Source: Favolaschia claudopus (taxonomy: Eukaryota; Basidiomycota; Agaricomycetes; Agaricales; Mycenaceae). Taken from it: a DNA stretch of 64,000 nt. The translations under genes were made by a program, and so were the position numbers. Of the stretch, positions 9,167-51,845 are shown one piece after another. The notes under the pieces are model-generated. The model was given only the letters and a program-made list of their open reading frames with translations. It searched no databases and had not been told where the DNA came from. The stretch spans positions 248,001 through 312,000 of the forward strand of contig JAWWNJ010000183.1 in the NCBI GenBank assembly GCA_037176885.1, given 5' to 3'. How positions within the stretch are numbered: position 1 is the first letter of the stretch; each line of letters begins with the position of its first letter.

Positions 9167-9170
9167 TCAT

Positions 9171-18327: not shown

Positions 18328-20950
18328 ATGCACCAACAGCTCGCGTTCTTGGCTACTCTCGTTCTCTCCCTTTCCTTAACCATGGTCTTTGCCGATCCGT
18401 TTGCTCCTCGGCAGATCACGGTCGTCAACAACTGCCCCTTCACTGTCTGGTATGTACACAAAGCCTTTAATATCGCCCCCCTTTTCAACCTTCCTCGTAG
18501 GCCAGCGGTACGCCTGTTGAGTTGATTTCATTCTATCGTGAATAACGTCTCAGCTTTCTGGTAGTCCTTCACAGCGGGCAGTCATGCCGGCGATCCTGCA
18601 GGGTGCGCCCGGCTTCAGTTCCATCTGATTTTTACGTTCGTAATGAAAATCCCTATCGATCCGATATTTCTACAGATGGGAAGCCAAGCCGAATACTAGT
18701 CTGATATTCAGCACGCCAGCTACCTGGGTTAGCCGCATATCTTCTACAACTCTTGATTCATTTCTGAGTTAGCCCGTAGAACGGCCGTCTCTGGGTATTG
18801 AGACTATTTTGTGATCTTCAAGTCATTTCTAAATCCTGACTTCGTCAATTAGGGCCGCCGCCTTTGCAATTTTTCCAAAGGTCCGAATAACTGTGTGAGT
18901 GGAGGCTGCAATGGAGGTTTGGTATGCCATCATATGTGTTTCCGAGGGAACGTAAGCGGAGCTGAATCATGAATCTAAGATTTGCGATCCTGCAACTGGA
19001 ACGGTATGACCCAAGTTCTGTCTCGCCAAGTCTGAGGAAATTTTATTCACCCGCCGCATCAGTAAAATGACAGGTTTGTCTTTCGTATCTTTTATCTTTG
19101 AAGCACATCTTTTGTCTTGGGAAGGCCGTCTTTCAGCTTGCGGAGGCGTCTTTCGTCTTGATACAACAGCTTTGGTCTTTGACACATTTTCTTTCCATTG
19201 TACTAGGAATTTCGGAAAACTCTGTCATAGTCATATTCTTCAAAAGTCTTGATCGTTTTGTGGATGTTCATTGGAATGAATTCGCATCCGCGGCACTTGG
19301 GAGCGGTGAAGCCGCTTGCAAGGTCAAGAACTTTCCTGTGAGAGTCTGGAGATTGATCGCAATCTCAACGGTTCGCCAGATGCCAGGCTGATCACAGCTA
19401 AGCTCGGAGCTCCCGAGTATGGCGGGAAGGACATGACGGGGCACAGCAGGAGCGAGCAAAGCCGCCTGCCAAAGCGTCAAAATCTTGAAAAACTACAAGT
19501 CATTCAAAGTCCGACACCCGCATCATGATCTGATGGTTTCCACAGCAAATGACGTGACATGGCGTGATTTTGGTTCGTCGCTTTTCTCTTCCTCCCACCA
19601 TCTTCTCTCCTCCCCCTTCCTCCTCCCCGAGTCCTCTGTGCTTCATATCCCCCAATCATCCTTTCAAATCATCTCAGTCGTCAAGTCTACAGTGCTCCTC
19701 AAGCTACATATGGAGCATTCAAGCTCCCAAATTACGGAACGCAAGCCCCCCATCCGGTGTCCCCTCCGACGTGTCAGCGACTTCAAGCTTCAAGTCTTGA
19801 CTATACCAAGCTGCTTTTCACTCGTCAAACCCGCTAAAGGTCTGAAACTACCTTGAGTCGCCCGTTTCGTCAAGTCGTATGGAGCCCATGCCCACCTCTC
19901 TTCACGTCAATCACCTCGTCAAGCCCTCGAAACTTCAAGTCCAAGAGCTCTCCATCCTCCTTTTCAAGGCCGTCAAGATTCTCTTCAACAGCTCTGCCTC
20001 GGACCCTCAAGATAACCACCCTACACGATCAAGAGAATCCAATGCCTTCGACTCTGCCTTCAAATCACGGGCGAGAGATGCGGAACATGGTGTGGAATGT
20101 CATATCACGGGTATGTGCTCCAATTTCCCTTCCTGCTGTTCCTCTACTCATTTGTCGCTTCATTCTGCCAGGCACTGCAAGCGCGGCTCTGCGTCGTCCG
20201 AGTCTGAGGATATGTCGATGCGGGAAGGAGGATGATGATGACATGGGCAATATCGGACTAGTTATATCATGTTTCTCGTAGTCTTTATAAATTCTTTTCC
20301 CGTCTTTCTGTCCCAGTTGAGTGTCTTGAATGTGCGTCTTGAGAAAGATATTGATGGTCTTTGGCATCTTTCCAAAGACGATTTGTCTTGAAACAGCAAT
20401 GTACCCTACCGGTCCCAAGACGTCGCGTCTTTGACAAAAATCCGTCTTTCACGTCTTTCGCGTCTTGGCCAAGACGTGAAAGACGCGAAAGACGAACTTG
20501 TTATTTTACTGATGCGCTTGTTTTCAAGGGTGTTCCGCCCGCTACCCTTGCCACTTTCACCTTCGATGCTTTCGCGGTGAAAGATATCTACACAGGTAAA
20601 ATGCGCAATATCGGCTCTCTCTGGCCTCTTATCCCTTCCTTCTTGCAGTCTCTGTGGTTGATGGATATAGTTTACCGTACGCAGCATTGGTTCATCGATT
20701 TTTACAGGGTAACATCATGCGTTGTGAAGGATGGCTATTCAGAACAACGGTGGATGTTCCGTTGCGTCGTGTCCCGTTGACCTGGCCACAAGCTGTAAGT
20801 TTGGAACTAGCGATGATCAAATTCGTCCCAGCTCAAATCGATTTCCACCTCCTCATTGAGGCCCCTTGAGTCTTGCAGGACCTTTCGATTCCGATGGCGT
20901 TCCCGTGGGTTGCAAAAGCGCATGTTTGTGGGATGCATTGCAAGGCAAGA
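18328..20950 (+). pseudogene. Thaumatin-like protein gene, 5' part, split by the KDZ element
   Basis: Eleven exons can be read, all with GT-AG borders and keeping frame: 18328-18449, 18501-18507 (7 nt), 18565-18602, 18676-18727, 18780-18794, 18853-18921, 18980-19003, 20529-20595, 20649-20676, 20730-20794 and 20861 onward. The product has a signal peptide (LAFLATLVLSLSLTMVFA), then thaumatin/PR-5 landmarks: VVNNCPFTVW, GGCNGGL, GVPPATLATF, VVDGYSLP, NNGGCSVASCPVDL and GPFDSDGVPVGCKSAC. Thaumatin-like proteins are secreted, disulfide-rich beta proteins, often active on beta-glucans. The frame is broken after codons for DALQG by the element at 20951; the rest lies at 51362-51845. A second mobile element sits in the intron 19004-20528. 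No other damage was seen, so inactivation looks recent. Confidence 0.9.
19055..20516. mobile_element. TIR element in a thaumatin-like gene intron
   Basis: The left end reads CGCATCAGTAAAATGACAG and the right end, reverse complemented, CGCATCAGTAAAATAACAA; both continue into GTCTTTCG repeats. The element fills an intron that is about 52 nt in the paralogue. Its interior is rich in CGTCTT/AAGACG motifs, including a 40-bp palindrome near 20445-20495, and has no transposase. Target duplication is unclear. A plausible donor (19004) and acceptor (ending 20528) remain outside it, so splicing could in principle remove it. Confidence 0.7.
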
Positions 20951-21010
20951 GCCCTAGTCCTAATATATAGTGTAAAAACGATGGTACTAGCCGTGGGATA
21001 TGGTTTCAAA
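20951..21010 (+). repeat. Left terminal inverted repeat of the KDZ element
   Basis: TATATAG lies at 20966-20972 and TAGCCGT at 20990-20996, i.e. 15 and 39 bases from the tip. The reverse complement of the right end has the same blocks 15 and 38 bases from its tip. Confidence 0.75.
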
Positions 21011-21249
21011 AGTGATGTTGGTGGACAACCAGTTGGCTATGTTCAAGTGCGGGCCCCTCACTCAAATTTCACGCTTTGCCGGCTGTTCATCACCTTTGGA
21101 TGTATTTGCCCTTTGATCCTGACCAGCAAAATTGTCGGAAACGGTCCTTGCAAAATTTTCTGCCTTGATTCGCCTGATGATGGTGCGTACAAAAATCCTT
21201 TATCCCCGAATGAGGGTGTAGTGATGATGCACTGATTTTTTTGTTTCCG
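21011..21249. other. Subterminal region of the KDZ element
   Basis: No gene is seen between the left end of the element and the GC-rich array. Confidence 0.4.
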
Positions 21250-22080
21250 GGAAGTCTGTTTGCCCGTGATTTTGCGCGCTTCCCCGACCCCCGCGCCCGC
21301 CCCGCCTCACGCTTAAAAACGGCAATTCCCGGGGTTTCTCCCACGCTCACTGACCCGTTTTTTTTCCCTTCCGTTCCCTTTGGCTCGTGATTCTGCGCGC
21401 CTCCCCGACCACCGCCCGCCCGCGCCTCGCTTCGAAACGGCAATTCCCTTGACTCTCCCACCCCCCTCGACCCGCATTTCTTTCCGTTCGCACCCGCCTC
21501 ACGCTTAAAAACGGCAATTCCCGGGGTTTCTCCCACGCTCACTGACCCGTTTTTTTTTCCTTCTGTTCCCTTTGGCTCGTGATTCTGCGCGCCTCCCCGA
21601 CCACCGCCCGCCCGCGCCTCGCTTCGAAACGGCAATTCCCTTGACTCTCCCACCCCCCTCGACCCGCATTTCTTCCCGTTCGTTCCGGCACTCGCTTTGG
21701 CACTTGATTTCTGTTTCACGCTTGGAAACGGCAATCCCCTCGACTCTCCCACCCTCTTCGCCAGCCAGCATTCGCTTGGCGCGTGGTTGTGCGCGCCTCC
21801 TCGACCCGCGCCCGCCGCCCCGCCCTTCGCTTCGAAACGGCAATTTCCGGGGGCCCTCGATACACATTTTTTCCCGTTCGTTCCGGCGCTTGCTTTGGCA
21901 CTTGATTTCCGTTTCACGCTTGGAAACGGAAATCCCCTCGACTCTCCCACCCTCTTCGCCAGCCAGCATTCGCTTGGCGCGTGATTGTGCGCGCCTCCTC
22001 GACCCGCGCCCGCCCAAAATTTCCGGGGGTTGTCCCGCCCTCCTCGACCCGCATTTCTTTGCATTCCCTCAAGCTCTTGG
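21250..22080. repeat. GC-rich tandem array
   Basis: Four related units occur in tandem, two with a period of 192 bp (from about 21301 and 21493) and two with 198 bp (from about 21683 and 21881). Each unit contains sub-blocks such as AAACGGCAATTCC, GCGCGCCTCC and TCGACCCGCATTTC. Both strands stay open for long distances because the periods are multiples of three and the array lacks A/T-rich stops. It lies near the left end of the KDZ element. Confidence 0.8.
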
Positions 22081-22765
22081 CTCTCTATGTGCCTACTTTT
22101 CACGCATTTTGCGGTTGACCGTGTCCCGCAGTGTCCGTTCGTCAAAGAAACGGATAAATTTGTCTTCCTCCCGCGATTCGTGTCATTTTTGTGCCTGGCA
22201 ACAACAGATTCTCAAATCACGCCACTATATTTCCCGTTACCCGTTGCAGTTGATAGCAGTAGCCCATTCGCCGCTGCCCCATGCCCCTTTGCCCCACTCA
22301 CTCTGCATCTCTGTTAATTCAGCCCATGCCTGAGCGTCGTCTGCCGCTTCATCTGGTATAATTCACAGGTTAGATATCACGGTCTTGGGATGGGAATGTG
22401 ACTGACGATAACTTAGACGCAAACCGGCGCCTTTCTCCCAGTGACGACGATCTTGTCGTAGGTATGCGTGGTAGCGAACGCGGCGAGGACGGGTGGTAGA
22501 GTAGGCAGAATATAAATTCACTAGACGTTGTTTGAATGGATGAGACAATACGTCTTGAATTTTCCTTACTATATTGGCGCTTGCCCATAATCGAGGAGGA
22601 AGAGTACCTCTTCTCACGTTCCCGCCCTATATCTGTAATTTACATTTGGCGCAATCTATCAACTCTTCAATTACAAGTCTTATCGTGTTCGACGGAACAT
22701 GCAATTCATTGATATCAAGTAAGAACAAGATGAAGACGTATTTAGAGTGTACACTGTACAACCTA
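22081..22765. other. Interval with an unassigned minus-strand frame
   Basis: A minus-strand frame at 22363-22617 (about 84 codons, starting GTG) contains a basic segment LPPRLWASANIVRKIQDV followed by LVNLYSAYSTTRPRR. It looks coding, but the gene is not recognised and no flanking exons could be fixed. Otherwise nothing is seen. Confidence 0.3.
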
Positions 22766-25700
22766 TCAGAATTTACCCTTGAACAGTTCATAGTAGGTAG
22801 CCATTCCCTCTAAAATCCATGTAACATCAACGACGGCCGCATCCCACACGCATTGAAGCTCCGGGTTCCCCCGCACAGCGCGTCCCCAAAACAGCAAAGA
22901 GGCGACGATACTCAAGACACCATTTACACCCCATTGATAAAGGGGTCCCCATTCTCTCCCCCCTGCGCCGTACCGTTCAGTAATTGCCCAGCATCCATCG
23001 TTACCTCTAGTTCTCCACTCCGGCTGAAGCGAATCCCACCATGCCTTCCACTGCGCGGCAAACGCAATCGGATCATCCACCACGGGCTCGTTGCGACGTG
23101 ATGAGCTGATCCAAGCTCCAACTGCCTTGGGGCGCAACTTCGCCGTAAGATTCGACGGCCCGTGCTCAAAACGCGAGGCCGCCTCCATTCGGGTCCATGC
23201 TGCGATCAGTGCTTGATAATTGCTTCCGAAATCGGCGTTGGTCATGGCCCTGTATGCCTCAACAAACCACGGGGCGGCTTTGGGAGGGCAAGGCTGGAAT
23301 CCCGATTCGAGAGGGGAGTGGGACGGCAGTGGAATGATAGGAAGATTGGATGATATGGCAACTTGAGCGGCTTGCGACATAGGCGGGAGCTGAGGCGGTT
23401 CGGCAGCCACGTCATGCAAATGCGGCTCCGAAGTCGAGTCATGAAGATGATTACCGCCGGAGGAGTCATCACGGAAGCCGTCGGGGAAGCTGGAGGATGG
23501 GATAGAGGAAGGAGACGAAGAAGAGGATGGATCATCGGGAGACGAAGACGAGGACGAGGCGGGGGCAGGGGCATCAGGAGACGAAGATGGGGACGGGGAC
23601 GGGGTAGAAGCATCGGGAGACGAAGACGAGGTATTGAGAGATGAAGAAAAGGACGGGACGCCGGGCGCAGATGGGTTGTCAGACGCAGACTGAATCGGCG
23701 CTGCATGGCGCTGAGACTTGCGGGTAGCTTCGGTTGGTGGTCTCGCCGTTCGCTTGGCCCTCGGCTTCTTTCCCATGGAAGTCTTCAAACCCTCCATGTC
23801 GGCTGAAATTTCTGTCTGTAGCTGCGCAAGTAATAACTTGTTCCGAATGATATTTTGCTGGCGCTCTTCCTCGGTGATGCCTTGATACGGGATGGAAGTG
23901 CGGGGAGGAGGCTGGTTTTCAGCATCCGAACCGGCTAGTGCCACATAAACCGTCAGACCAAAAGAAGGTAGGAAAGGCAGATGCTCACCTGAAGTTTTCG
24001 TCCTGGCTCGGCGTGGCGTCGTCTTCTCTTTACTTCCACCGACTTTCCGTTTCTTACGGGCACGCGTTGCCTCCTCCTCATCCTCCTCCTCATCGGACGA
24101 AGAGTCCGACGACGATGAATCCGAAGACGAATCCGACGACGAGTCGCTGTCGGACCCATCATCCCCATCGTGAGGGTTTGCAGCGATCGTGTATGGTGCT
24201 CCCGCGAGGTCGGGGGCCGTCAGCCCTGACTGGGCACAATCCTGAGCCGCTGGATTGGTTCCGATGTAAGTTTAGGTCGTAATTTTGTTAAGCAGGCCAC
24301 ACTCACTAAACGCGGTATGCAGATACTCTGTCATAAATTTGCTCACATTCTCAGAGAAGCGGGGCTTGTCCCATTGCGGCCAGTGCTGCGCGAGAGCTGT
24401 GCGATTACGGCCGTATGAAAGGCTGGTAGATTGAGTCAGACGACTGAGATAGAAAAGAAGAAAAAGATTGCATACTGGATTGTGCGTATATCGCCTCCGA
24501 ATTGTGGAATGGGTCCTCCTACGATAAGCGTTACATGGGGCACAATGGTGGAGTGGTCCATTGTGCGGCGTTTCAACACGTCAACTGTTGACGGAGTTTT
24601 TGGGCAGCAGTTCGAACCCCCCACCCTCCTGGGAGATAACACTTTTGACACTCCTCGGCTTCACCACCACCGATTTTCCGGCCATCTGATCATCTTTCCA
24701 ACTTTGTCACTGTGTGACCAACGCCAAAAACAGTCATTCTTTCCCACTTCCCACCATCACTCAGAAATCCTCGGATCACAGCTGGCAATCACCCGGCGGC
24801 CAGCACATTTCAATTTCACAGTATTGCGGTCATACTCAAACCCCCCGGACTGGGAATCCGGGCTGGTTTATCCCAGGAAGCGGGCCTGGGAGTTTCGATG
24901 GGGGCCACCAAGAGAACAGAAACATCACTGCATTGTGCCGAGAAAGGGAATTCCATCAGTCTGGATACAGGACTATGATGATGGATCAGAAGGAGGATCG
25001 GGTGGCTGGGGTGTTGGCCATCAGGAAGTTAGATTGCGCATCAGAGGCTGGGAATGATCATCAGTTCTCATCATACTTTACTCACCAGTGCCCCCTTTGT
25101 GAGGCCTAGACCCCCAGCTATCATTACTCACGCACATCATGTGCATACGTTCATCACTGCCTAATGTGGGCGTGATTTGCAGACTGCCGCAGATTACCAA
25201 ATTATGCACGATTACCAAATAGCTATGTAACCTCGAGTACAGAGTATGCCTACCATGTCTTAAGGGACGAAGGGCAAATAACACGGATTAAAAAAAAAAA
25301 AAAAAAAAAATAAGCGTTACATGAAGCCCTGTGTGCTGGTTGATGCCTTGAAGAATTGGTGCGACAAAGTCTGGGAGGTCGTCGATACACCTCACCAAAA
25401 AGTCAAGTCTACGAAGCAAAGATCACGATGGCAACTCACTTTTGACGAGCCGCAGGACTCTCCGACGGAGGCGATTTGAGTGAAGCTGTGTATGCTGCCT
25501 TTGCGTCGGCGGCCTCTTGTTTTGCACGATTGGCGATGGCCGCACGCTCAGACTCTGGCAGCTGGCTGAATACCTGACGAGCCACCTGAGCGCGAAACCC
25601 GGCCTTTGGCTCCTTCGTCCTTTCCGCGACGGTAGTGTTCTGTGATCTCTCCTCCTCCCAGCGCTCAGTTACGACCGGTGCGACTTTGTCTTCGTAGGAC

Positions 25701-26242
25701 TCATGCATGAATTGCTGATATGCTTGTCGAGCTTTTGGAGGTGCTGATAAGCCCGAGAGTTTGCCTAAAAGAACAGCATAGGGGTCTTTGGTGGGATCGA
25801 GGCCGGATGAAGGTTTCTGTTTGCGAAGTTTTCTGAGGCGGTAGGTAAACCAACGGCGAATTCGCTACGAGAAGGGAGAATGAGGAGAAGTGTTACATGT
25901 CACGCTGTGACTTACCTTATTGAGCTCATCGACGCGCGCAGCGCGCACTCGCTCGTCCTCTTCGCTCAGCGTCTCAACAACCTCCATAGCAGTCGGGTCC
26001 CAGTCCAATACAACTGGCTCTTCATGATCTTGGGTCCTCCGGTGCGCTCGGGCGTGGAATTCACGACAGACACTTTTCAGGTACTTTCTTTCCTGACGAC
26101 GTCCTTGGTCCAGTGCAGCTTGGTATTTATCAAGATGCGGCTTGAGAATAGACTCGCGAGCTCCTTCAGCCCAAAGGCGGAGATTTTTTCGGTCCTCTCT
26201 GGCGACCCGTTTTCGTTGACGTTTCTTGCCTTTTTTTGCCAT
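22766..26242 (-). pseudogene. Agaricomycete-specific cargo protein, broken by a SINE
   Basis: Exons read as 26242-25916, 25864-25440, 25408 into the SINE, resuming at 24537-24476, then 24422-24307, 24249-23989 and 23934-22766. All splice sites and phases agree except where the SINE interrupts the codons for HVTLI. Features in order: a basic N-terminus (MAKKGKKRQRKR); charged helices; an RIRRWFTYRLRKLRKQ block; a conserved core (CIDDLPDFVAPIL, then VGGPIPQFGGDIRT and QHWPQWDKPRFSENV); an Asp/Ser/Glu tract and basic segment; a Ser/Pro-rich linker; and a Trp-rich C-terminal domain (WKAWWDSLQPEWR). I recall uncharacterised agaric proteins with this layout. The function is unknown. Antisense poly-T and early stops from the SINE make a full product unlikely. 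Confidence 0.82.
24538..25309 (+). mobile_element. tRNA-like SINE with poly-A tail
   Basis: This 772-bp insertion is flanked by a perfect 14-bp duplication ATAAGCGTTACATG (24524-24537 and 25310-25323) and ends in about 20 A residues. The head carries pol III promoter-like boxes: TGGTGGAGTGG (A box, near 24545) and AGTTCGAACCC (B box, near 24609). No protein-coding capacity is evident. Poly-A plus a long duplication is the mark of LINE-machinery retrotransposition; the partner LINE is not in this window. It lies antisense to the cargo gene it interrupts. Confidence 0.88.
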
Positions 26243-26503
26243 CTGCTGAGCGTTGAGAATATTGCTTTGTGAATCAAGCTCATCGCATACCGCGTAAATG
26301 CAACCGGGGGGTTTTTTTTTGGCAAGGATATCTGTCCACGAGTGAAGAGGAAAGGTTTGTTGTTCGATGTTTGTAGGTTTGCGGTTTGTTGATTCAATGA
26401 TCTGTGTGTCGCATGGTTTCCCTCTACCCTTCTCGAGACGTGGACCTATCAGATTGAGATCAGGGTCACCGGTGACTGGCGGAGTTTGGATCTCAACCGA
26501 GAG

Positions 26504-26509
26504 TATAAA
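26504..26509 (+). promoter_or_regulatory. TATA box of the cargo gene at 26560
   Basis: GAGTATAAAGG lies 51 bp before the ATG at 26560. The 317-bp interval 26243-26559 separates two divergent cargo genes and probably serves as a shared promoter. Confidence 0.5.
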
Positions 26510-26559
26510 GGGCTTGACCGATATTTGATCCCTTCTCAACCTCTTTCCTTCGTACCACT

Positions 26560-27563
26560 ATGACCCAATTCCCAGACACCCCTACTGGAACAGAGACTGC
26601 TGTTCCAGTAGCACTTCAATCGGCAAACGGTGAGCTCTACTTATCTTCGTTTCAAGCGACTCTTTGTTAATTTCATTCTTTCATTCCTTTCTTCATGCAG
26701 CCACTATCGCTGGCCTGCGAGCCCTCCTCGCCGGCCTGCACGTGGACAATCAAGGTAATTCTCGTCCCTCAGTCGTCCAGCATTGACATTAATCCACAAT
26801 TCTAGCCCCTGCTGGCGCCACGGCAACTGCGACCCGTCAATCGGATGGTGAGTTCGGTTTGTTCATTTTCCCTTGATCAATCAATGACTCATTTCTTCCC
26901 CTCCTCTCTAGCCGAGATCCTTGCCGCCATGTCCGCAATCCTAGCCCCTGCTGGCGCCACGGCAACCGCAACTGGTCAATCGGATGGTGAGTTTGGTTCG
27001 TTCATCTTCCCTTGATCAATCAACCACTCATTTCTTTCACTCCTCTCTAGCCGCGATCCTTGCCACCATGCGAGCCTTGCTCGCGGATGTAGAGTCGAGA
27101 GGTAAGTTCCTTGCATCCCTTTTACTTGACACTGTGATTCCGACCTTTCTCAGTCTCTACTCCGGCCGCTGCTCCAACTCCTGCTCCCCCCGCTCCAGGT
27201 CCCGCCATCACTGCCTCTCCCGCCCTCGCCATTCCTGCTCCAATGGTCACCGCTGCCCCCGCTCCAGGTGCCCTAGTATTTCGTACCAGCGCTCCCTGGA
27301 TTGCAGGATTCGTATACATTGTCATTCCCCTCGCCAATCTTTCGGCTGTTGCTGAGCCAGCATACGAGAACGAGGAAGATTCGCCCACATGGTACTGTAT
27401 CACCAGGGGGAAGTATGTTGGGGTAATCATGAACCACACTTTGGCGCATGGAGCGGTTGCGGGCGTTTCGGGCAACAGATGGAAAAGCCACAAGACCCAA
27501 GCCCTGGCCTTGCAAGATTTCAATGATGCCTTGACCTGTGGACTGGTCGCCGTTGTTCCCTAA
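26560..27563 (+). CDS. RNase H1 N-terminal-domain protein, cargo 1
   Basis: Six exons (26560-26629, 26701-26754, 26806-26847, 26912-26986, 27051-27101, 27154-27563), all joined in phase 1, give 233 residues. The N-terminal half consists of short Ala-rich repeats, two of them from a 139-bp exon-plus-intron tandem duplication. An Ala/Pro linker follows. The C-terminus carries a Cauli_VI / RNase H1 N-terminal type fold (WYCITRGKYVGVI, then VSGNRWKSHKTQALALQDF), a small module that in other proteins binds RNA:DNA hybrids or dsRNA. No catalytic RNase H domain follows. A role in handling transposon nucleic acid is speculation. Confidence 0.8.
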
Positions 27564-28030
27564 ATTGGTAAGTTCATTCACTTGATTTTGATTTTCTGCG
27601 GCTATTTCGTCTTACTTCTTTCTTAGTTCGTATTAATCCGTCCAACCGCATGGCTCTTACATAGTTACATGGTTTTTGTCGCGTAGTTGTACTTGTTTCA
27701 GAAATAAACCCGAGGCGTGCTCTCGAACATGTGAACATGTGCGACGTTCGACTGTGTATTCGTTTTGGGCAATTTTGCCGTAAATATCCCACAAAGGAAA
27801 GTCTCCGCTTCCCGCTTCCGACCCTGGCCTGAGGTGAGTGAAATGCAAAAATCTGAAACTTGTGCGTCCACGCGTTCATACAAAAAATATATCCTTCAGG
27901 GTGCCATGCATGCGGTTCTCTCTTGAGTCTTGGTCTTCTCAAGACGATTACTCTAATTACCATAAAGGTACAATCACATTGACATCAGAACGGTCTCTTC
28001 TGATTCTGATAACGGTGACTTCTACCACAT
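27564..28030. other. Intergenic inside the KDZ element
   Basis: No gene is recognised between the two RNase H1 N-terminal-domain genes. Confidence 0.4.
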
Positions 28031-31852: not shown

Positions 31853-32072
31853 GAGCGCAAAGAAGAGAAAGGTCTCTTCTTTTTTGATCGTGATATTATT
31901 ACTGATGTTCGTCGGTTCCATGAACAGGGTGGTATGTATATTCAGTGCCGTTGTACAATTCTTACAAGCATTTCATGTGAATAAAAATCTTGAGGCTCAC
32001 TCCGTACTACTCAGAATAATTATCGTTGCATTTTTGCGGTGTACCAAACAGCTATTCTAGCGAGAAACATTT

Positions 32073-40838: not shown

Positions 40839-41034
40839 GATGTACAAATATGATGCTCTACTAAATAGGAAATCGTCTTTTTTTTGTCTCCAATTTGGTC
40901 CTTGTCCAACGCTCGCGATCACGACAACAATAATGATTTGCACGGAATTGATGCGAGACTGATTGAACAACAACGACGGGATCGAAAGCACGGCAAATAG
41001 ATGACCAAAGGCCCAGTGTAAGCAGAAAGTAAGC
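40839..41034. other. 3' flank of the transposase gene
   Basis: This short untranslated flank ends with the 8-bp AAGTAAGC duplication (41027-41034) of the nested TIR element. Confidence 0.5.
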
Positions 41035-44000
41035 CAGCTAAGGTACCAACGTTTTGATGACAAATCGACCTTCAAGGTGGGGTTAATCGGGTCAACTAAA
41101 CCTAGCCTCAAGCTCGAGCAACGACGTCGAGCATCACATAATGAGCCTTACCTCCGAGGCCTTACGCTATTCTAGGACCGCGTCGACGTTGGCGGCGGCG
41201 TCTTCGTTGTGGGCGGGTTGTTTGATCGTGTTATGATTAGATCAAACCCTCCGTCGTCACTCCCTCCTCGCTACTCTGTCTATCCCTCTCTGATCCCTCT
41301 ACTCTTTCGTGCTTAGGCGCATGTCGGGGCTCTGGGCTATTCATATGGCACCTTTCTGGGTCTTTTGGGAGGAGATAGAGGTGTTGGGACTGTGGTAACA
41401 TTCGGCCTACGGTACGCCTTTCCACCCTCCGCGTTGAATGACGGTGAATCTAATCGATTCAAGTATTCTACAGCAAGCTTCTGTCCATGTAAGAAGTCTA
41501 CATGCAAAGTCTCAGACCACGACCATGGCCCTAGCATCCGCCTCCGTCGATTACCACCCAGCGTACTTTGCGCCCCCTTCGCGCTTCTGCTTACCCTACG
41601 CCCCTCAACATGTACCAACATCCTCTAACGCCTCACTGCCATCTACCTCTCGGCTTGAGGTTCTTGTATTCCACCTCGCATCGTCGCTTCCGCCCCGCCG
41701 CCGTCGGCTCCGTCCCACCGCCGCCAGTTTCACCTTCACCGTTCACGCAGTTCTGTCTTGTGGAGCTCGGCATTGCTGTACATATACCTCTAGTGTTCTT
41801 CGTCGCTGCGGTCTCCCCCCCTTGTACCGCCGGTTCCGTGTCTGCGTTCTGTAATCCGCGAGCTATGCCTGCCCTGCGCCTTCCAGAAATACGCCGCCTG
41901 CCCCATTACATTCCAACACATTGCCTTCAGTTCCTTGGCGGCAGGTCGCCTTCCGCCGCCGCACGATTGATTTCTTGCACCTTCCTCCTTGCGGTCTGAA
42001 AAGATAGCACAGCACCACCACCTTCAGCATGCCGTCCTCGCGCTCTCCTAGATTCTCTCGCTCTTCTCACGCCTCCAACCTTGCACCGCCGTCGCCGGCG
42101 TCGCTCACACCGCCGGTTCCCCCTGCTGCCGTCGCTTCGCCTTCCTTTCGGTCTACCACACTCCAAACACGACACCAGAACTTTCGGCGCACCACCCCTG
42201 ATCTTGGTGGCTGCCACGAGCCTGCTCCCCCTCGCACTGGCGATTTCACCTACGTTCGGTGTTCGACCTCTCCCGCCCTCAATCGCCCGAGCAATCCCAG
42301 ACGCCTCCGACGCCGTCTCCGTCTTGTATATTGCACCTTCCACCTTTGTGCCTTTGGCTACCTGTGCGTTCCTCAACCGCACCCGCTACATATACATCTG
42401 TGCCTCTATAGCCGTCGCCATCGATGTCCCCCATTCGCTCCCGTCATGTCGATCCGTACTGTTACTTTACACTTAGCCTCCAAATAGCTTCCGCACCATC
42501 CGCCCTTAGCACCTGTTCATCTACGGCCGCCGTCGTCGATGTTGCCGCCGTCGTCGACGTTCATTCCTCGTCAATTACTGTGACCTGCTGTGTTGTGATC
42601 GAATACATCAATATATTATCATCCTTCTCGCATATTGTATTGAAATGAACAGACTGGAGCTTTGTTTTCACCGTCGGAGTCCCTTTCCGTCATTTGCGCC
42701 TCCGTTGCCGTCGCCTAGATTTTGTGCTGAAATGAGAATGATTGGATTTCATCTATATTTCAACAGACAACAGACATTACAAGCTGTCTGTATAGTCTCT
42801 CAGCATGTATTCCTGCTGTGTTTTTGCCAAGAAGTAGGCTGCTCATGATACTTGTACTGTGAGGGTAAGCCAGAGCATTATCAGCACTAAGAACTAGAGT
42901 GCCTTTCAGGCCATTTTGTGCAAGCGAGACAAGAATTCGGAAACTTAACGAAATTTTTACATAGAAAGTTTCGGGCGTGCTACAGAAACAATTTCCGATG
43001 GTTATTGGAGGCACTTCCTTGAGGAAAAAAAGCACGGTAAGCAAAATCGGAAGCGGTCAGATTTATTCAGCTCACCATTGGCTGGCCTTAGAGCGGCCTT
43101 TTACGTCTGTGGCGGCTGGTGCGATAATTACCGCGGGTGTTGTGCGGCGAGACGTCGGGATCGACATGCCGTCACCCGCCCGCCCTGTACGGTAACATGA
43201 GTGCACCGTGTTTCCAGTTGAATCACAGCAGTTTCTGGTCTCTCAATCTTCTGTTCATTCTCAGCTGTTCGCCGCAAAGTCCCTCAACCGCTTCCTAACT
43301 GGTACACTCTCGAACCCGACGCCGTTGCCTGTGAATCATTGCCGACGTCGACGCTTCTCACTGCGCCTCAAGCCTCTTGTACCTACAAGTGACATAATTG
43401 CTCAGCACTTTCTTTCTGCTACACGGATGTTCAATCTTGTTTTTGCTTTGAGGTGAGTATAAACTACGTGCTAAAACTGTTTTCCTCGATAATGATGCCC
43501 CACTTGTTCGTTGCGTTTGATTCTGGGCCAGATACACCTCGCAACTCAGCCATCGATCCGAGGTTCTTGGCTATCCCGCAACGAAATCACCACGCCTCGC
43601 CACGCCCGTCGTTGCATCACATCTACCGCCGCCGTTGTCGTCACACCCACCGCCGGCGTCGAATGCCTAGCGATATAAAAAACGTCTCTAGCCCTGCTCC
43701 GGCTACCTCAAATCCTACCGCATCATCACGCTCGTAGTCACAACGCCATACCACAAAACCGTCACTATCCACCGCTCCCAAACCCCGCCTCCGTCGTCTC
43801 CACAACGACGGAGGGCGCCGCTGGTGGGGATTACCAACATCGACGGCGGCGGGAGAATCGGGGCTTATGGTGATGACTGCGCGCAACAAGTACATGGATG
43901 TTTGAGGGTGCTTGCACGACATTGAGGGCTCTTTCCCAGCAATTTATTACGATTTTCGCGACGGTGTCGACGGAGGTGGCGGCGAAGGGAAGTCAAAAGC

Positions 44001-44636
44001 GAAGCAGATGAGCAAGTTGATGGAACAAGAGAAGATAAACATTGTTGGGGGTGGCATGGCCTGCGCATTTTTCACGATTGGCGGGAAATTTCGATTTGTA
44101 CCGGCGTCGCCGGAGGTGAACGCCGTGTCAGAAGCGAGATGTAGGTGTGCAGAGATAGAGCTGTGGTCTGACACGAAATTTGAAGTATATCGGCCGTCAG
44201 AGACGATGGAGTCGACAAAATCCAACACCGACGAGAACGGTAGCCGACAGCGACGGAGGCGCAGATACATGAAGAGGACGACAACAGTGGGCGAGAACCG
44301 AGACTCCAAGTAGCGGAACGATTGTGCAAAGCGCCGCAATAGATTTGTGAATGGGACGAAGGTGGATGCGAGAGTCGAGGACGACGACGGCGGCGCGGTA
44401 ACGCGGTTAACGACAAGAGTGATCAAACAGATCAAGCTGCCAAACAAGGATCAAAGAATGCACTAGACACGGCATCCCCGGCACTAGCCCCGTGCCGGGG
44501 CATCGCTTGTGATGCCGAACACTTAAATTCGACCAATGCTGGTTCAATCGACGACGACGACGACGAGCCCCCGACGTCGACGCTCAACCGCCGTACCCCA
44601 ACGTCCCAATTAGGCTTAATACCTCATTTTACGTGA

Positions 44637-44964
44637 TGTAAGGGCGGAGTCCCAATATCAATGATCCGTATTTTGTTCCACTTCGGCATTCGCCGAAGTT
44701 CAAGTCGTCGTGTTCGATTTCGTGTCTCTTCGTGTCCCCACGTAGAGACACGTCCTTTTGACTCATTCCTTACTCCATTCAGTATGTAGTATCAAGTATA
44801 TAAGCTAGATAGGTTGTACAAGTAAGTAGCATTCTTCGAATCGAGACTCTTCACTACGTATATCAGCGAACCCTCAAGAATCTCGACTCACAACAACTCT
44901 CAATCTCTCGTGTGTCGCTGACCATTCTAGTCTTCAAGTAAGCAAGAATCTAGGCGACCTCACA
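44637..44964 (+). repeat. 5' LTR of the gypsy element
   Basis: This 328-bp LTR carries AGTATATAAGC near 44796 as probable promoter. It was inserted into the right inverted repeat of the TIR element. Confidence 0.93.
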
Positions 44965-45070
44965 TTTTTTTACGTACATCTCTTTATCTCGTTTCACCCT
45001 ACGCTCTCGGACTGATCACCCGGTGCGTTTATTTCTCTAAATTTTTGCTAATAAATTTTCTCTGTTAGAC

Positions 45071-48000
45071 ATGTCTCTTAAATACCGTACGGAAGGGAAA
45101 CGGACCGCTTCAGAGGGTGCTCAAGGTAACAAGAGGACCCTATCCGATGAAGTGGCGGCCGTCGGCGCGGCCTTCGACACGTCTGTCGGGGACGCCAACC
45201 AATTAGAAGCCTCGGTGAGCAGCAAATCTCACCATAAATCCTCAGAACACCACGCTTCCGAGTCCACTCTGGCAGGGAAGTGGGGATTGCCTGTTGATGA
45301 AGTGGCGGCTTCTACGGGCGCGAAGTTGACGCGAAGCACGCGGTCAAACTTGCCCAAGCGCCTTGAGCTCTCCGGCACTTCTGGTGTCGTGCATGACTCG
45401 GCTGCTCGTATTAATCAGCGCTTAGAGCTCTCGGGTTCCGCAGGAACCGCGAACGACTCAGCTGCTAAGCGCCTTGAGCTCTCCGGCACCTCTGGTGCTG
45501 CGAATGACTCGGCTGCTTCAATTCTCGCTGCGAGCGGAGAACTACAGCCAGGGAGCCTCCCTGGTGTAGACCAGAACGCGTTAACGACGCATTCCTCTCC
45601 GCGCATTCGCCGGTCAGAGCTGGAAGAATATCTTGAGGACTTCCACAATAGAATTGGAGATGAAAGCAGTTTGTCAGAATTATCTGAGTCCGAGTCAGAG
45701 GCCGAGGAAATCTTCGCACCTGCTGTGGTTCAAACCAAGGAATGGACTGTGGTTGGAAATAAGGCAGATTTTGCGGCGGAGGGCGGGAAGAAAGCTAAGG
45801 AATATGTTCCGTTGAATAACATGAACACGGACAATAAGTTCTTCCCCACCTGGTTTGATTTAGACTTTGAATCAACTCGGGAGTTTGAGACGGCGCCATT
45901 TATCCCTGAGTTTCCAGTTCTTGATACGAAACTCTTTGGGAATATCTTCGAAGAATTGAGTGACAATGAAGATGTAATTGGACTATTCGTTAATGACTCA
46001 CCTTCGGATGATTCGGACTCTGAACTTTCCGAGAACGAGTTGAATGCCGCAGTACAGGCGGCTCTTCTCGATCATTATAAGAACTCGAAGGTCACTGACC
46101 TGGGAATGGGTCGGAGGGCGGGTTCTTCAAAGGTTAAACTCGGTGCAACCACGTTTGCAAAAACCGAGTATAAGGCACCTTCAGATAAACCTAAGGCAAC
46201 CTTCGTTCAAGGTTCTTCCAAAGGTAAAGGTGTGGATCAAGGGGAGAAAGGCCCCGACTACGAAAGGCTTCGTAAGCTCGCTAAGAAAGGATTAAATACC
46301 GGAAATAAGGCTGGAAAGAAAGCGCACAAGAATGTTCAGGAAAATCATCTTAAACCTGAACACTTCAAACGCGATCAGTCCGAAATTCCGAACGGCGGAT
46401 GGTTTAGGGCACGCACCGAGGAACCACAGATTCCACCGAGTCCCCCAACCTCGCCTCCGTCCTCTTCCAGCGATACCGGCAGCTCTTCGTCTTCTGACAG
46501 TTCCGACGATTCGAGTGACGAGTCGAGCTCATCTGACTCTGATTCGAGCTCTTCAAACTCGTTGTCTTCATCGGCAAAGCGTCGTAAAAGAACCCCGTCA
46601 GCGAAGCGAAAGCAGTCTACAAAGGAGCATAAGAAATTGCAGAAGGTATTCCGCTCGGTCAAAATTAAGGAACCCTTCGTATATGACGGAAAACCTGACC
46701 TTGATACATTTGACCACTGGATCTATGAAATTGACACTTGGGCAGAATGGCACGAAATTAGCGATGCCATGGCCGTGAAAGTGATGGTGAATTTCATGAC
46801 TGGCAAGGCTAGCAAGTTCTTCATGAAACATGTAGCGTTGCGGCGCAAAGACTGGACAATGAAATTAGTATATGAAGGCTTATTCAACTACTGTTTCCCA
46901 CCGGATTTCAAACTGCGCCTGCGACAAAGGTTGATGAATGCAACACAAGGCACTTATAAAGTGCGAGACTTCTTACGCGATATTGAATCTCTAGCCGTTC
47001 GCTTCCCTGACATCACGGAGCGTCAGCTTATTCAAATCTTCTGGGGAGGATTACATCAAGACCTACGTTTGCATTTAATTGGTAAAGGATTGAACCCAGA
47101 GAGTTCATCTCTGAAGAAATTAGCCAAGCACGCTACCAGGCAGGAAAGCGTCCTTGATGCGTTCAAACGCGAACAACAGGAGCTTGGAAAGCAGAATCAG
47201 CAACGGCAGTACAAGGCAAATAACACCTACAATGGGCCCAAACAGAATCAAGGGCAGTCACAGCCCAGCGCCGATCAATCTAGCAACAAGCAGAATAATG
47301 CTAAGGGCAAAGGGCCTCAGAAAGGAAATAACAACGGTGAAAAGAAGGGAAAATATACCGATCGAATTTCCAAAGAAGAACGAGACCGGTTGCGAGCGGA
47401 AGGCCGTTGTTTTACCTGCAAGGATACTGGGCATGAGAGCCGCAACTGTCCGGAAAGACAAACGGCTAAAGCCCCCAACCTTAAAGCGGGATCAGTCCAC
47501 TTTTCTGCGGTTGAAAACCGTGCGTCGGCAGCCCGAGAAGCAAATCTCCGTGTGGGTGCGATGGAAATATTGACCGAGGCACCTGTAATGGAGGGCGAGA
47601 AATTTCAGGAGCACCCAAGCGATGCAGCAGCGTACCTGATTGCGCTTTTCAAAAGCTTCTACGGTTCCGACGACGAGGAAAGGTTCACTACAATTGATTA
47701 TGGTAATTCCATCGAAATTACAGATTGGGAAAAACCAGAACAACCATACCTTGTACACCGCGGAAAACTCGAGAACCCAAAATTTGGTGTCGCAGACGTA
47801 CTCGCTGAAGCGGAGGAAATTGAACCGCCGAAGCGAAACGGCGCATTTCCGAGCATGGGCGAACCTGATGACGAGTACCCTGCCATCGATTGGCTTCGTA
47901 TTCGTCTCGCTTTCGCGATGGATGAACGACGATGGGCCGAATTTACACCTATTGAACGGGTTCGCGTCGAACCGCACGAACAAGGCTATCTGGTTGTTGT

Positions 48001-50959
48001 ATTGAACACTGACATCGAATTTATAGTGACTCACCATGAAATCAAGAGCCCCGAATTTGATTGTGGGTTGGTGTTGGATCGCGAATGGGAACTATTCGGT
48101 TTAGAGGCTGAATTTTCGAGTCCGGAATGGGAGACGAACAATCTTGTCCTTGGATTATGCGCAGCTCAGCCTGTAAAAGATAAGGTACCTGGATTTCGTC
48201 GCAAACAGCAGAGAAAAGGGTCCACTTACCGAGAACAATTAGATGCAATAGAACGAAATGCAATGGCACCTCGCGACTTCAAACGCAGATCTCCAAAGCC
48301 AATTGTTGTAGAGATCGTGATCAACGGACAGCGCGCGCGGGCATTGCTGGATACCGGTTCAATGGCGGACTTTATTTCGACTAAATTGGTTGATCAGTTA
48401 AGGTTGCGGAAAGATATATTAGCCAAACCCGTAACGGTTCAACTTGCTGTACATGGTTCCCGTTCACAAATCAACGCGTCAACTGTTGTAAATATGAAAT
48501 ATCAGGATATTGACGGTGAAAGGCGGTTCGATATAGCGAACCTAGATAGCTACGACGTTATCTTGGGCACGCCTTTTATCTTTCAACACAAGCTGGCAAT
48601 CGGGATGAATCCAACACGGATAACCGTCGGTTCAAATGTTCCAACCGAGATGCGGGGCCCTGAAATCTCGACGGTTGAGTCTGCAGCGGCCGATATATTT
48701 GCGGAGGATCTGGAGAGAATCAGACAATCTCTTCGAGAGGAAGCAGCAGATTTGTGCCCAGATACAGCGGATACGGACTTACCTCCATTCCGTGCGGTAA
48801 ACCATTCCATCCCGTTGAAAGACGAATCCTTGGTGCATAAATGGCGACCTTCTAAATGTCCTGAAGCATTGAAAAATGTTTGGCGCAAGAAGAAGGAAAC
48901 TTACATGAAATCGGGGCGATGGCGTATGGCATCTGGCGGGAACGCGTCGGCAATGTTGATTCTTCCCAAGCCAGTAAAGGAAGACGGCGTCGTCCGGATT
49001 AGGACTGTGGTCGATAAGCGTGCGCAAAATGATAATACTGTTAAAATTGCGGCACCTTTACCCGACATTCACGCCATCTTGCGGAACGTCGTAAGACATC
49101 CTTATCGGACCCTAGTTGATGGCAAGGACTTCTATGAGCAAATTCGGGTCGTTCCAGAGCACGTCTCACGCACCTTGTTCAATACACCCGATGGAACCAT
49201 GGAAAGTTTAGTTCTTCAGCAAGGAGACTGCAACGGGCCGGCAACTTGCCAAACTCTGATGAACCATATCTTCAGTGCATACATCGGTGTTTTTATGGAT
49301 GTTTACCTGGATGATATCATCATTTATTCGGACACTGTCGAGGAGCACATCAAACATATCAGAATGGTCTTCGACGTGTTAAGGAAGGAGAAATTGTACC
49401 TGTCCGCGGATAAAATGCAATTTTTCGCAGAGAAATTGAAGATCTTGGGACATGTCATCGACGAACATGGGATATTAATGGACCCCCATAAGGTTGATGC
49501 TATCGCGAACTGGAAAACTCCGACGAACAAAGACTTACTTGGAAGTTTTCTCGGTGCCGTCGGTTACTTGGCCGATGATTGTCCTGGAATCCGTATTCCT
49601 ATGGGAATTCTCACACCATTAACAGGTGAGAAACGATGGAATTGGGGACATACCGAGCAGCGTGCCTTCGAAGAAGTCAAGCAGATTGTTCAAAGTTGGC
49701 GAGATCACCACCGAGTATCTCTTGATTATTCCGACACCGCCGAAGCTATCAATTTGGTGACGGATGCTTGTTGTACGGGGGCTAGCGGGTATGTAAGCCA
49801 AGGAAACGACTTAAAAGCCGCTAAGATTGTCGCATTTTGGTCAGGGAAATTCAATTCGGCACAGCAGAATTATCCCGTACATGAACAGGAATTATTGGCT
49901 ATTGTTGAATCATTGAAAAGATTCCGGGGACTGTTGCACGGTGCAAAATTCCGCATATCGACAGACCATAGAGCTCTTGAACACTTGATGCAGCAGAGAA
50001 ATTTGTCGCCCAGGCAGCACAGATGGCTCGATATACTCAATGAGTTCAATTTCACGATACATTATATTCCGGGAGAAACAAATATATTCGCGGATGCTTT
50101 ATCGAGAATATACAGTGCTGAACCAGCCGGAGTAGTACGAGCTCCAAGTGAGTATGTGGGAAATGACCAGGGAGACTCGGAGCCAGAGACTGTCGACTCA
50201 GATTTAGATGATGAGGTGGCACTGTCGGCACCGATCTATACCGGGGCGACAGCTGTTCTGGAGGGCGCGCCACGTAGGTCTTCACGATTGGCGAAACTAT
50301 CGGCGGGTAATCGAACGTATGGCGGACCAAGGAGACGTCAGAAAGTTGATCCTGCGGACGCAGCGGTAGAGGAAGAGCCAGAATATCCACGTGTCGATGA
50401 TGTGGAAGACCTGTCACTTCCTATTTTGGTTCCGGAACGAGAAACCGATCAGTCGGAGACAACGGAAGCAAATCCCGTCCAGCCAAAGAAGCAAAAGGCT
50501 GTGCAGACGGAATTACAAGGTGTTCTTACCGCTGGCGACCTCGGATTGCCCTTACCTCACGGATTGAAGTACAGATATAACGAGGACTCTTTCTTTCGAG
50601 ATATTCTCAAAGCTCCAAATGAGTACAGAGATTTTCAGGAACGAGACGGCCTTGTATTCAAAAATAGGGACGGAATCGAGGTGCTATGTGTACCCGATGT
50701 CAAAATTGGCGCCCGCAGCGTACGAGAAATTTTGATCAAGCACGCTCATTCCCTTTTGGCACATCTGGGATCACGAAAAACCCTGGAATTTCTCCGTCAA
50801 GAGGAATGTAAGGGCGGAGTCCCAATATCAATGATCCGTATTTTGTTCCACTTCGGCATTCGCCGAAGTTCAAGTCGTCGTGTTCGATTTCGTGTCTCTT
50901 CGTGTCCCCACGTAGAGACACGTCCTTTTGACTCATTCCTTACTCCATTCAGTATGTAG
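45071..50959 (+). CDS. Gag-Pol polyprotein lacking integrase core
   Basis: 1962 codons in one frame. Order: a Ser/Asp-rich N-terminus with a repeated LELSG-type motif (residues about 95-150); a capsid-like segment (residues 535-690); a CCHC zinc knuckle near residue 780 (CFTCKDTGHESRNC); an aspartic protease with LLDTGSMADFIS near 1094; reverse transcriptase with VDKRAQND, GDCNGPATCQ and the YLDD active site near 1412; RNase H with VTDACCTGASGY near 1563 and TDHRALEHL; and a chromovirus-style linker. It ends with only the HHCC start of integrase (HAHSLLAHLG, near 1890) before entering the 3' LTR, so the last 50 residues are LTR-derived. Gag and Pol share one frame, as in several fungal gypsy lineages. 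Confidence 0.92.
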   Translation: MSLKYRTEGKRTASEGAQGNKRTLSDEVAAVGAAFDTSVGDANQLEASVSSKSHHKSSEHHASESTLAGKWGLPVDEVAASTGAKLTRSTRSNLPKRLELSGTSGVVHDSAARINQRLELSGSAGTANDSAAKRLELSGTSGAANDSAASILAASGELQPGSLPGVDQNALTTHSSPRIRRSELEEYLEDFHNRIGDESSLSELSESESEAEEIFAPAVVQTKEWTVVGNKADFAAEGGKKAKEYVPLNNMNTDNKFFPTWFDLDFESTREFETAPFIPEFPVLDTKLFGNIFEELSDNEDVIGLFVNDSPSDDSDSELSENELNAAVQAALLDHYKNSKVTDLGMGRRAGSSKVKLGATTFAKTEYKAPSDKPKATFVQGSSKGKGVDQGEKGPDYERLRKLAKKGLNTGNKAGKKAHKNVQENHLKPEHFKRDQSEIPNGGWFRARTEEPQIPPSPPTSPPSSSSDTGSSSSSDSSDDSSDESSSSDSDSSSSNSLSSSAKRRKRTPSAKRKQSTKEHKKLQKVFRSVKIKEPFVYDGKPDLDTFDHWIYEIDTWAEWHEISDAMAVKVMVNFMTGKASKFFMKHVALRRKDWTMKLVYEGLFNYCFPPDFKLRLRQRLMNATQGTYKVRDFLRDIESLAVRFPDITERQLIQIFWGGLHQDLRLHLIGKGLNPESSSLKKLAKHATRQESVLDAFKREQQELGKQNQQRQYKANNTYNGPKQNQGQSQPSADQSSNKQNNAKGKGPQKGNNNGEKKGKYTDRISKEERDRLRAEGRCFTCKDTGHESRNCPERQTAKAPNLKAGSVHFSAVENRASAAREANLRVGAMEILTEAPVMEGEKFQEHPSDAAAYLIALFKSFYGSDDEERFTTIDYGNSIEITDWEKPEQPYLVHRGKLENPKFGVADVLAEAEEIEPPKRNGAFPSMGEPDDEYPAIDWLRIRLAFAMDERRWAEFTPIERVRVEPHEQGYLVVVLNTDIEFIVTHHEIKSPEFDCGLVLDREWELFGLEAEFSSPEWETNNLVLGLCAAQPVKDKVPGFRRKQQRKGSTYREQLDAIERNAMAPRDFKRRSPKPIVVEIVINGQRARALLDTGSMADFISTKLVDQLRLRKDILAKPVTVQLAVHGSRSQINASTVVNMKYQDIDGERRFDIANLDSYDVILGTPFIFQHKLAIGMNPTRITVGSNVPTEMRGPEISTVESAAADIFAEDLERIRQSLREEAADLCPDTADTDLPPFRAVNHSIPLKDESLVHKWRPSKCPEALKNVWRKKKETYMKSGRWRMASGGNASAMLILPKPVKEDGVVRIRTVVDKRAQNDNTVKIAAPLPDIHAILRNVVRHPYRTLVDGKDFYEQIRVVPEHVSRTLFNTPDGTMESLVLQQGDCNGPATCQTLMNHIFSAYIGVFMDVYLDDIIIYSDTVEEHIKHIRMVFDVLRKEKLYLSADKMQFFAEKLKILGHVIDEHGILMDPHKVDAIANWKTPTNKDLLGSFLGAVGYLADDCPGIRIPMGILTPLTGEKRWNWGHTEQRAFEEVKQIVQSWRDHHRVSLDYSDTAEAINLVTDACCTGASGYVSQGNDLKAAKIVAFWSGKFNSAQQNYPVHEQELLAIVESLKRFRGLLHGAKFRISTDHRALEHLMQQRNLSPRQHRWLDILNEFNFTIHYIPGETNIFADALSRIYSAEPAGVVRAPSEYVGNDQGDSEPETVDSDLDDEVALSAPIYTGATAVLEGAPRRSSRLAKLSAGNRTYGGPRRRQKVDPADAAVEEEPEYPRVDDVEDLSLPILVPERETDQSETTEANPVQPKKQKAVQTELQGVLTAGDLGLPLPHGLKYRYNEDSFFRDILKAPNEYRDFQERDGLVFKNRDGIEVLCVPDVKIGARSVREILIKHAHSLLAHLGSRKTLEFLRQEECKGGVPISMIRILFHFGIRRSSSRRVRFRVSSCPHVETRPFDSFLTPFSM

Positions 50960-51134
50960 TATCAAGTATATAAGCTAGATAGGTTGTACAAGTAAGTAGC
51001 ATTCTTCGAATCGAGACTCTTCACTACGTATATCAGCGAACCCTCAAGAATCTCGACTCACAACAACTCTCAATCTCTCGTGTGTCGCTGACCATTCTAG
51101 TCTTCAAGTAAGCAAGAATCTAGGCGACCTCACA
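50807..51134 (+). repeat. 3' LTR of the gypsy element
   Basis: This copy equals the 5' LTR. It directly abuts truncated integrase codons, marking an internal deletion that removed the catalytic integrase region and the usual polypurine tract. Confidence 0.93.
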
Positions 51135-51300
51135 CGTGATACCCGCTTCCGTTGCCTGGAGCTTGAGGTAGGCTTTTACGCACCCTCAAAACCCGACCTT
51201 GAAGGTCGATTTGTCAGCAAAACGTATGTACCTCAGGTGAAGTAAGCACGAAATAGCCTTAAAACGACGGTTGTAGCCAGGTATGGCTGGCATCGTGGAT

Positions 51301-51361
51301 ATTGAAAATAATTCCAACGGCTACATACAAGACATGAGACTATATACCAGCACCAGGGGTG
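51301..51361 (-). repeat. Right terminal inverted repeat of the KDZ element
   Basis: Read on the minus strand from 51361 it begins CACCCCTGGTGCTGG, then TATATAG (51346-51340) and TAGCCGT (51323-51317), matching the left end in order and spacing. Confidence 0.75.
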
Positions 51362-51845
51362 AAGGCAAAGCTGGTGAGGCGATTCTCGAAACATCATGCG
51401 TCTGAACGAAACCTGCTCACGTTCTTAGGCAATTCCTCGAACTGCTGCACCGGTAAGGCTTTTCTCTCCCGGAGATTGGAATCTTCACCGAAACGCGACA
51501 GGTTCTTTCAGCTCTCAAGCATCCTGCCCAACCTCAGGTAGATTTCATCCATTGATCCTCATTTTGTTTTCTAAATTTCCCGACGTATAGGTGTTGACCA
51601 TTACAATTACTTCAGTGAGTTACAATCATTCACCGGCACCATTGAAGGTGACCATTCATGCTCAATCGCTCACCATCCTTCATCTTCATCTTCTTTTTTC
51701 TTAAGAAAAAAGCTGTCCAAACTGCTTTGCCTATGCGTTTGACGAGCCAAGCGGCAACACTGTTTTTCAATGCTCCAAAGACATGGAGAACGGTACACTG
51801 GTTGAATATACCTTGACTTTTTGCCCCGATCCCTCCGCTTTGTAG
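51362..51845 (+). pseudogene. Thaumatin-like protein gene, 3' part
   Basis: This continues the gene that starts at 18328. After the target duplication the interrupted exon ends at 51373 (donor GTGAGG). Further exons are 51429-51452 (GNSSNCC), 51503-51538 (SSQASCPTS), 51591-51614 (VDHYNYF) and 51706-51845 (SCPNCFAYAFDEPSG to CPDPSAL and stop). Exon sizes and phases match the intact paralogue, for example the 36-nt exon. All splice sites look functional. Cys residues of the thaumatin fold are retained, so only the insertion disrupts the gene. Confidence 0.9.

Follow-up and report, generated by a model that had tools for sequence, protein, structure and literature searches.

A large, Kyakuja-like KDZ transposon with a recurring gene set in an exon of a Favolaschia claudopus gene

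We analysed 64,000 nucleotides of the agaric Favolaschia claudopus (GenBank assembly GCA_037176885.1, contig JAWWNJ010000183.1, positions 248,001 to 312,000, forward strand), referred to here as the window, in which an exon of a putative thaumatin-like gene is interrupted by a 30,413-bp insert (20949..51361, plus strand). The insert is, with high confidence, a member of a recently active, Kyakuja-like family of large (~19-20 kb) KDZ transposons whose gene set recurs from copy to copy, and it is collinear with two further full copies in the same genome, C13 (19,730 bp) and C70 (19,293 bp). An exact 7-bp direct duplication, AAGGCAA, brackets it (20942..20948 and 51362..51368), and other copies of the family likewise have 7-bp repeats. 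When the flanks are rejoined, the exon aligns without a gap over the junction with a minus-strand paralogue at 61.3 kb, the junction lying just 5' of GT donor-like bases. An initial annotation, made from the sequence alone, had placed a 30-kb KDZ transposon at 20944-51368; its borders are correct to within a few bases, and the duplication and the bridged frame and exon layout that it described are as claimed. Its insertion into an exon also stands. The label thaumatin-like is a tentative one, drawn from that annotation's own call and from a weak match between the downstream exon (44 amino acids, aa) and the end of Pfam Thaumatin (E 0.0057, below the curated cut-off). A 52-bp near-palindrome, 92% self-complementary, lies upstream of the interrupted exons at 20443-20494.

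The ends of the insert are imperfect terminal inverted repeats (TIRs), delimited by end alignment and copy comparison. The left repeat, GAGCCCTAGTCCTAATATATAGTG (20949..20972, plus strand), and the right repeat, ending ..CTATATACCAGCACCAGGGGTG (51338..51361, minus strand), agree at 17 of 24 positions when aligned ungapped from the terminal bases, and at 18 of 24 on the same diagonal shifted one base inward. With gaps, the end-to-end inverted match extends over ~60 bp and contains the TATATAG and TAGCCGT blocks noted in the initial annotation. Within 1 kb, 3.88 million combinations of registers give a top score of 19/24, so the score of the ends alone is not unique; the register is fixed, in our view, by its agreement with the exon, the flanking repeat and the ends of the other copies. 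Across the family the TIRs are imperfect and about 22 bp long, with left ends reading GAG.. in all seven found and right ends closing in ..GGTG. Beside the left end, GC-rich direct repeats of 161-192 bp occupy 21259-22014, and C13 has similar ones.

The transposase gene (37159..40838, plus strand) has 11 exons and encodes 1055 aa. Its ten GT..AG introns (44-58 bp) all keep the frame, and the intact, stop-free product contains a full-length KDZ domain (PF18758, 1-217, E 4.8e-55) and a full-length CxC2 domain (PF18803, E 2.8e-29), the pairing of KDZ core and CxC cluster that defines the KDZ superfamily. The full transposase proposed earlier is thus present once the introns are removed. Candidate catalytic residues lie within VDANF, YDIAC and GEGIER. 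The top database relative, 89% identical, is also from F. claudopus, and the window's own protein was not among the matches. Four exons compared with C13 and C70 gave ratios of nonsynonymous to synonymous substitution (dN/dS) of 0.02-0.09. A first run, in which two transposase exons were out of frame, was replaced and is kept as a control only; in the wrong frame the ratio is 4-11.

Both ends of the element recur together elsewhere in the genome. As a query, the left 342 bp found two further places (3/3 candidates scored). A query with the right 121 bp led to the same two (best 40 of 77 candidates scored), corresponding to C13:355887-375616, with the duplication TTTATTC, and C70:979491-998783, with AAAAATG. 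Both copies start GAGCC and end GGGGTG, and their similarity to the window starts at 20949 and stops at 51361 (51363 in C70, by two chance bases). The window is 73% identical to C13 and 72% to C70, and C13 and C70 are 80% identical to each other. With one transposase exon as query there are 41 top-scoring loci, the window included, at 67-100% identity (best 150 of 298 candidates scored), some of which may be allelic or assembly duplicates. The right terminus, ..TAGCACCAGGGGTG or a near variant, is present in 25 of 27 regions downstream of a transposase, a count in which C104 shares flanks with C26 and may be the same insertion; it was unseen at L112, where the region fetched was too short, and at L113.

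Left ends were sought in a 4-kb stretch per copy, as the seven bases after the right end standing directly before GAG(C/G)C..TAATATATA. Four further copies were completed in this way (C88, C28, C12 and C43), each with a 7-bp duplication, and they measure 19,648, 19,959, 19,933 and 18,826 bp. The same-genome search for copies with both ends, which the initial annotation had suggested, therefore yields C13 and C70 at homologous bases and these four. Exact 7-bp duplications flank seven of the nine copies checked at both ends, the other two having been sought in 4 kb each; in one of these, C178, the stretch holds a different KDZ transposase, 28-45% similar. The last 600 bp are identical between C12 and C47, and again between C11 and C83, with C26 at 99.8%, and in each case the flanks past the terminus are unrelated. 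Near-identical ends in unrelated flanks point to recent movement.

Comparison with C13 and C70 rules out the 30-kb length first proposed for the KDZ element, since the remainder consists of nested elements that both copies lack. The largest is a high-copy TIR element (41035..51239, plus strand; termini CAGCTAAGG..AGGTG) with an 8-bp duplication, AAGTAAGC, defined by border comparison at 41027..41034 and 51240-51247. It measures 3,702 bp without the long terminal repeat (LTR) retrotransposon that lies within it and the latter's duplication. With 51140-51240 as query, its termini recur in at least 37 other genomic places (40 matches minus the window and two KDZ right ends, from the best 40 of 77 candidates scored), three of which, among the matches listed, show the ends in inverted orientation at a spacing of 3.6-3.7 kb. 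The complementary stretches 41035-41123 and 51150-51239, a candidate for a second KDZ end, were rejected as such, being the TIRs of this separate element. The LTR retrotransposon (44637..51134, plus strand, 6.5 kb) has a 5-bp duplication, CGTGA, and 328-bp LTRs that are identical over their length, and it inserted recently. Its single 1972-aa frame matches gag, protease, reverse transcriptase and RNase H in Pfam, which reported no integrase family for that frame. The third is an insertion resembling a short interspersed nuclear element (SINE; 24538..25312, plus strand, 0.77 kb), with a poly-A tail, tRNA-like A and B boxes recognised by eye and a ~14-bp duplication, ATAAGCGTTACATG; it sits in an exon of gene G1 and breaks that gene in the window copy. 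As C13 and C70 are without all three, the KDZ element proper (20949-41034 plus 51248-51361, plus strand) is 20,200 bp here, or ~19.4 kb without the SINE-like insert.

Five genes, namely G1, RNase H1-N, a TET/JBP-like gene, RING and the transposase, are collinear in all three full copies. G1 (22769..26206, minus strand), of unassigned function, is split in the window and corresponds to an 834-aa protein in C13 (P0121). The RNase H1 N-terminal domain (Cauli_VI) gene lies at 28019..29277 (plus strand, limits approximate; Pfam E 2.6e-06), and the RING-finger gene at 36340..36891 (plus strand, limits approximate), directly upstream of the transposase; in the Mycena proteins P0083 and P0110, RING and KDZ domains are found in one protein. 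Over 130 of the 187 other frames of at least 62 aa in 20949-44636, Pfam (E up to 0.01) gave notable domains only for RING and RNase H1-N, and it reported no tyrosine recombinase family in these or other scanned frames, a scan that intron-split exons could escape. We set aside a weak SR-25 match, which falls on low-complexity sequence in G1, and a periodicity scan, which gave signal in frames on both strands, was not used. Against C13 and C70, dN/dS is 0.06-0.27 for G1, 0.21-0.24 for one exon of RNase H1-N, 0.18 for RING and 0.14-0.15 for the last exon of the TET/JBP-like gene; these comparisons, like those of the transposase, were made at dS 0.7-2.2 and are partly saturated. The tested exons of all five genes are under purifying selection.

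The accessory genes also accompany the transposase beyond the full copies. Homologues of G1 in F. claudopus number at least 15 proteins on 14 contigs (candidates sharing most words scored), and 12 of these contigs, all that were looked up, also carry a transposase with an identity of 67% or more. The distance from the left end to G1 is 1.2 kb in C88 and 1.8 kb in both C12 and the window. Related pairs occur in Mycena, where contig sharing is deduced from equal base counts of contigs: G1 and transposase on two contigs of M. olivaceomarginata (172,060 and 103,176 bases) and one of M. crocata (576,733), and the TET/JBP-like gene and transposase in M. crocata (289,902). A divergently placed TET-like gene accompanies 33 of the 41 top transposase loci of F. 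claudopus at up to 20 kb (median 8.0 kb; 37 loci if the limit is 45 kb). Of 58 KDZ loci that are less closely related, 22 have it within 20 kb and seven show the wrong geometry. This count took the first 99 of 150 transposase matches and nearly all of 150 TET-like matches, leaving out a few second pieces or weak TET-like matches; C58 (71% over part, rank 42) stands outside the 41. Several genes are aboard, as the initial annotation had it, and what it termed cargo is a set that recurs and is conserved, not acquired passengers.

The TET/JBP-like gene, or pseudo-TET (32076..34946, minus strand, start and exons approximate), encodes a dioxygenase-fold protein identified by fold match and alignment; the C13 protein, P0150, has 838 aa. 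Of 29 members aligned, 8 have a Pfam Tet_JBP match with E up to 0.1, the best being 3e-05. A single-sequence PDB search with pseudo-TET gave nothing useful, and a profile of canonical relatives gave zero matches. With a mixed profile, Tet-like dioxygenases came up at no better than E 0.23-0.35 and ranked after a PKHD-type hydroxylase (0.032). The predicted model of a canonical relative (predicted local distance difference test, pLDDT, 85.7) has Coprinopsis CcTet as its best match (E 8e-05; template modelling score 0.50 on the query; root-mean-square deviation, rmsd, 4.6). The model of the window protein (pLDDT 75.4) finds CcTet from rank 3 (E 7e-05, rmsd 3.4-3.9), ranks 1 and 2 being vitamin-K carboxylase chains at rmsd 15.

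A complete HxD..H iron site is present in 14 of 14 distant relatives and in none of the 15 family members aligned. In the family the D is replaced by N in 14 members and by T in one, all 15 have Y, F or I in place of the distal H, and the first H is kept in two, the window among them. The family alignment derives from 20 of ~38 near hits, with L067, L069, L079 and L080 dropped as short or broken in frame and L074 and L076 as near-duplicates; the distant set derives from 20 regions less six near-duplicates, all six of which have HxD..H by eye. The M. crocata protein P0151 also misses the site (by eye), so its loss is probably old, while selection persists. From its residues, pseudo-TET is predicted to be non-catalytic.

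Several known systems invite comparison, Kyakuja being the closest. Kyakuja-type KDZ transposons of Agaricomycetes were reportedly the subject of Iyer et al. 2014. As far as the accessible parts of Kojima 2025 (PMC12730594) describe them, Kyakuja elements have 7-bp duplications, compared with 8 bp in Zisupton and Dileera, and carry AG-type TET/JBP genes, and the Laccaria Kyakuja families have CA..TG termini without TIRs. The F. claudopus family resembles them in its KDZ transposase, its 7-bp duplications, the TET/JBP-type gene aboard and its agaric host. It differs from that partial description in its GA..TG termini, in imperfect TIRs where two Laccaria families have none, in several further conserved genes and a size of ~20 kb, and in a TET/JBP homologue that folds like CcTet yet has a complete HxD..H in 0/15 members. 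Since it shares with Kyakuja the 7-bp duplication and, in altered form, the TET/JBP gene, though not the termini, the family would work like Kyakuja and is probably allied to it. The portions available of a study of Cryptococcus neoformans (PMC12810828) describe KDZ1-3 as ~9.2-11 kb long, with TIRs of 139-241 bp, CxC1, and duplications of 8 bp (KDZ1) or 4-8 bp (KDZ2, KDZ3). These share with our family a KDZ transposase with a cysteine cluster, TIRs and insertion into genes; they have CxC1 where ours has CxC2, and those portions mention no extra genes. Starships, in what was available of their description (PMC12134995), are tyrosine recombinase elements of Pezizomycotina with accessory-gene cargo: large, multi-gene and fungal like the present family, which by contrast has a KDZ transposase, TIRs and a recurring gene set. 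Among the papers listed in searches for a giant or cargo-bearing KDZ element in agarics, none describes one, judging by titles and opening lines of abstracts. The initial annotation had suggested that a DDE-driven giant in an agaric would be a different system. A DDE-type KDZ element with defined ends is indeed what we find; it is not a wholly different system, because agaric KDZ transposons with extra genes (TET/JBP) are already known. What is new relative to known KDZ elements is the defined imperfect TIRs, the gene set and the altered TET, and, more tentatively, probably also the ~20-kb size.

Could the 30-kb block be a pile of independent insertions mimicking one element? This holds for 41035-51239 (10.2 kb) and 24538-25312 (0.77 kb), which are separate and absent from C13 and C70. 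The other 19.4-20.2 kb is collinear throughout with C13 and C70, whose terminal bases coincide and which have 7-bp duplications of their own; this refutes such a pile for the core, and we regard it as very improbable overall. Separate relatives for the 5' and 3' halves, named by the initial annotation as evidence against a single element, were likewise not found for the core and exist for 41035-51239, a separate high-copy element. An assembly artefact or chimaera is more remote still: the assembly is repeat-rich (264.6 Mb) and C26 and C104, with their common flanks, may be allelic or an assembly duplicate, but duplications are precise, the exon is restored, and seven separately located copies have distinct duplications.

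A less far-fetched, still unlikely, explanation is that, as in Starships, the extra genes are host-derived passengers which serve the host. The purifying selection could also reflect a benefit to the host, the functions of the genes are unassigned, and at 8 of the 41 close transposase loci no TET-like match has the expected geometry at up to 20 kb. Yet the same genes stand in the same order in all three full copies, the TET-like gene keeps its fixed geometry beside the other 33 of 41 close loci (22 of 58 distant ones), G1 and pseudo-TET share contigs with close transposases in Mycena, and one would not expect genes of the host to increase in number along with a transposase. We therefore describe the gene content of this KDZ family as a fixed, recurring set rather than Starship-style cargo. 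Several points weigh against our account. Movement is deduced from copies in one assembly, left ends were sought in only six further copies and found in four, and the apparent genome-wide linkage of G1 draws on shared contigs and five copies. A TET-like match lies in the wrong geometry within 20 kb of four of the 41 loci. In G1, RNase H1-N and RING, some of the copies aligned contain stops (0-2 per copy), so not every copy need be intact, and the window copy, with G1 interrupted, may no longer be autonomous.

We propose a model where the DDE-type transposase, encoded near the right end, recognises the imperfect TIRs GAGCC...TATATAG / CACCCCTGGTGCTGGTATATAG, cuts out the unit and reinserts it through a 7-bp staggered cut, presumably by cut-and-paste. 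The target in the window would have been the exon of the thaumatin-like gene. The accessory genes may serve the element: RING and G1 could be factors in transposition or host control, and pseudo-TET a non-catalytic protein that counters silencing by binding DNA or methyl-DNA. Later, three smaller elements would have entered the window copy, interrupting G1 and moving the right end 10 kb away. It is possible, and we put it forward as a conjecture more doubtful than not, that a giant Kyakuja-like lineage of Mycenaceae turned a TET/JBP 5-methylcytosine oxidase into a non-catalytic protein retained by selection, a reader of DNA or methyl-DNA or else a decoy, that shields the element or guides the transposase, forming with G1, RING and RNase H1-N one fixed transposition and anti-silencing module.

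Elsewhere in the window, direct repeats of 928 bp, 100% identical (4812-5739 and 8240-9167), surround an 820-aa frame without a Pfam match and resemble another recent retroelement or duplication. An inverted repeat with arms of 273 bp, 87% complementary, lies at 15363-16202. Frames at 1760-3130, 13815-15293, 16317-17744 and 63196-63999 show 67-78% mutual DNA similarity and form a gene family without a Pfam match, and 11912-12421 holds a minus-strand fragment of a STAND/NB-ARC-type NTPase.

A family of large DDE transposons in a basidiomycete now has exact ends, a series of copies and a described gene content, and its near-identical copies point to recent activity, which makes excision and insertion testable. 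Large transposons of fungi are not necessarily Starships, and what looks like cargo can be an integral gene set. With a complete TET site lost in every aligned copy of the family while selection continues, the question becomes what use a dead TET may be to a transposon.

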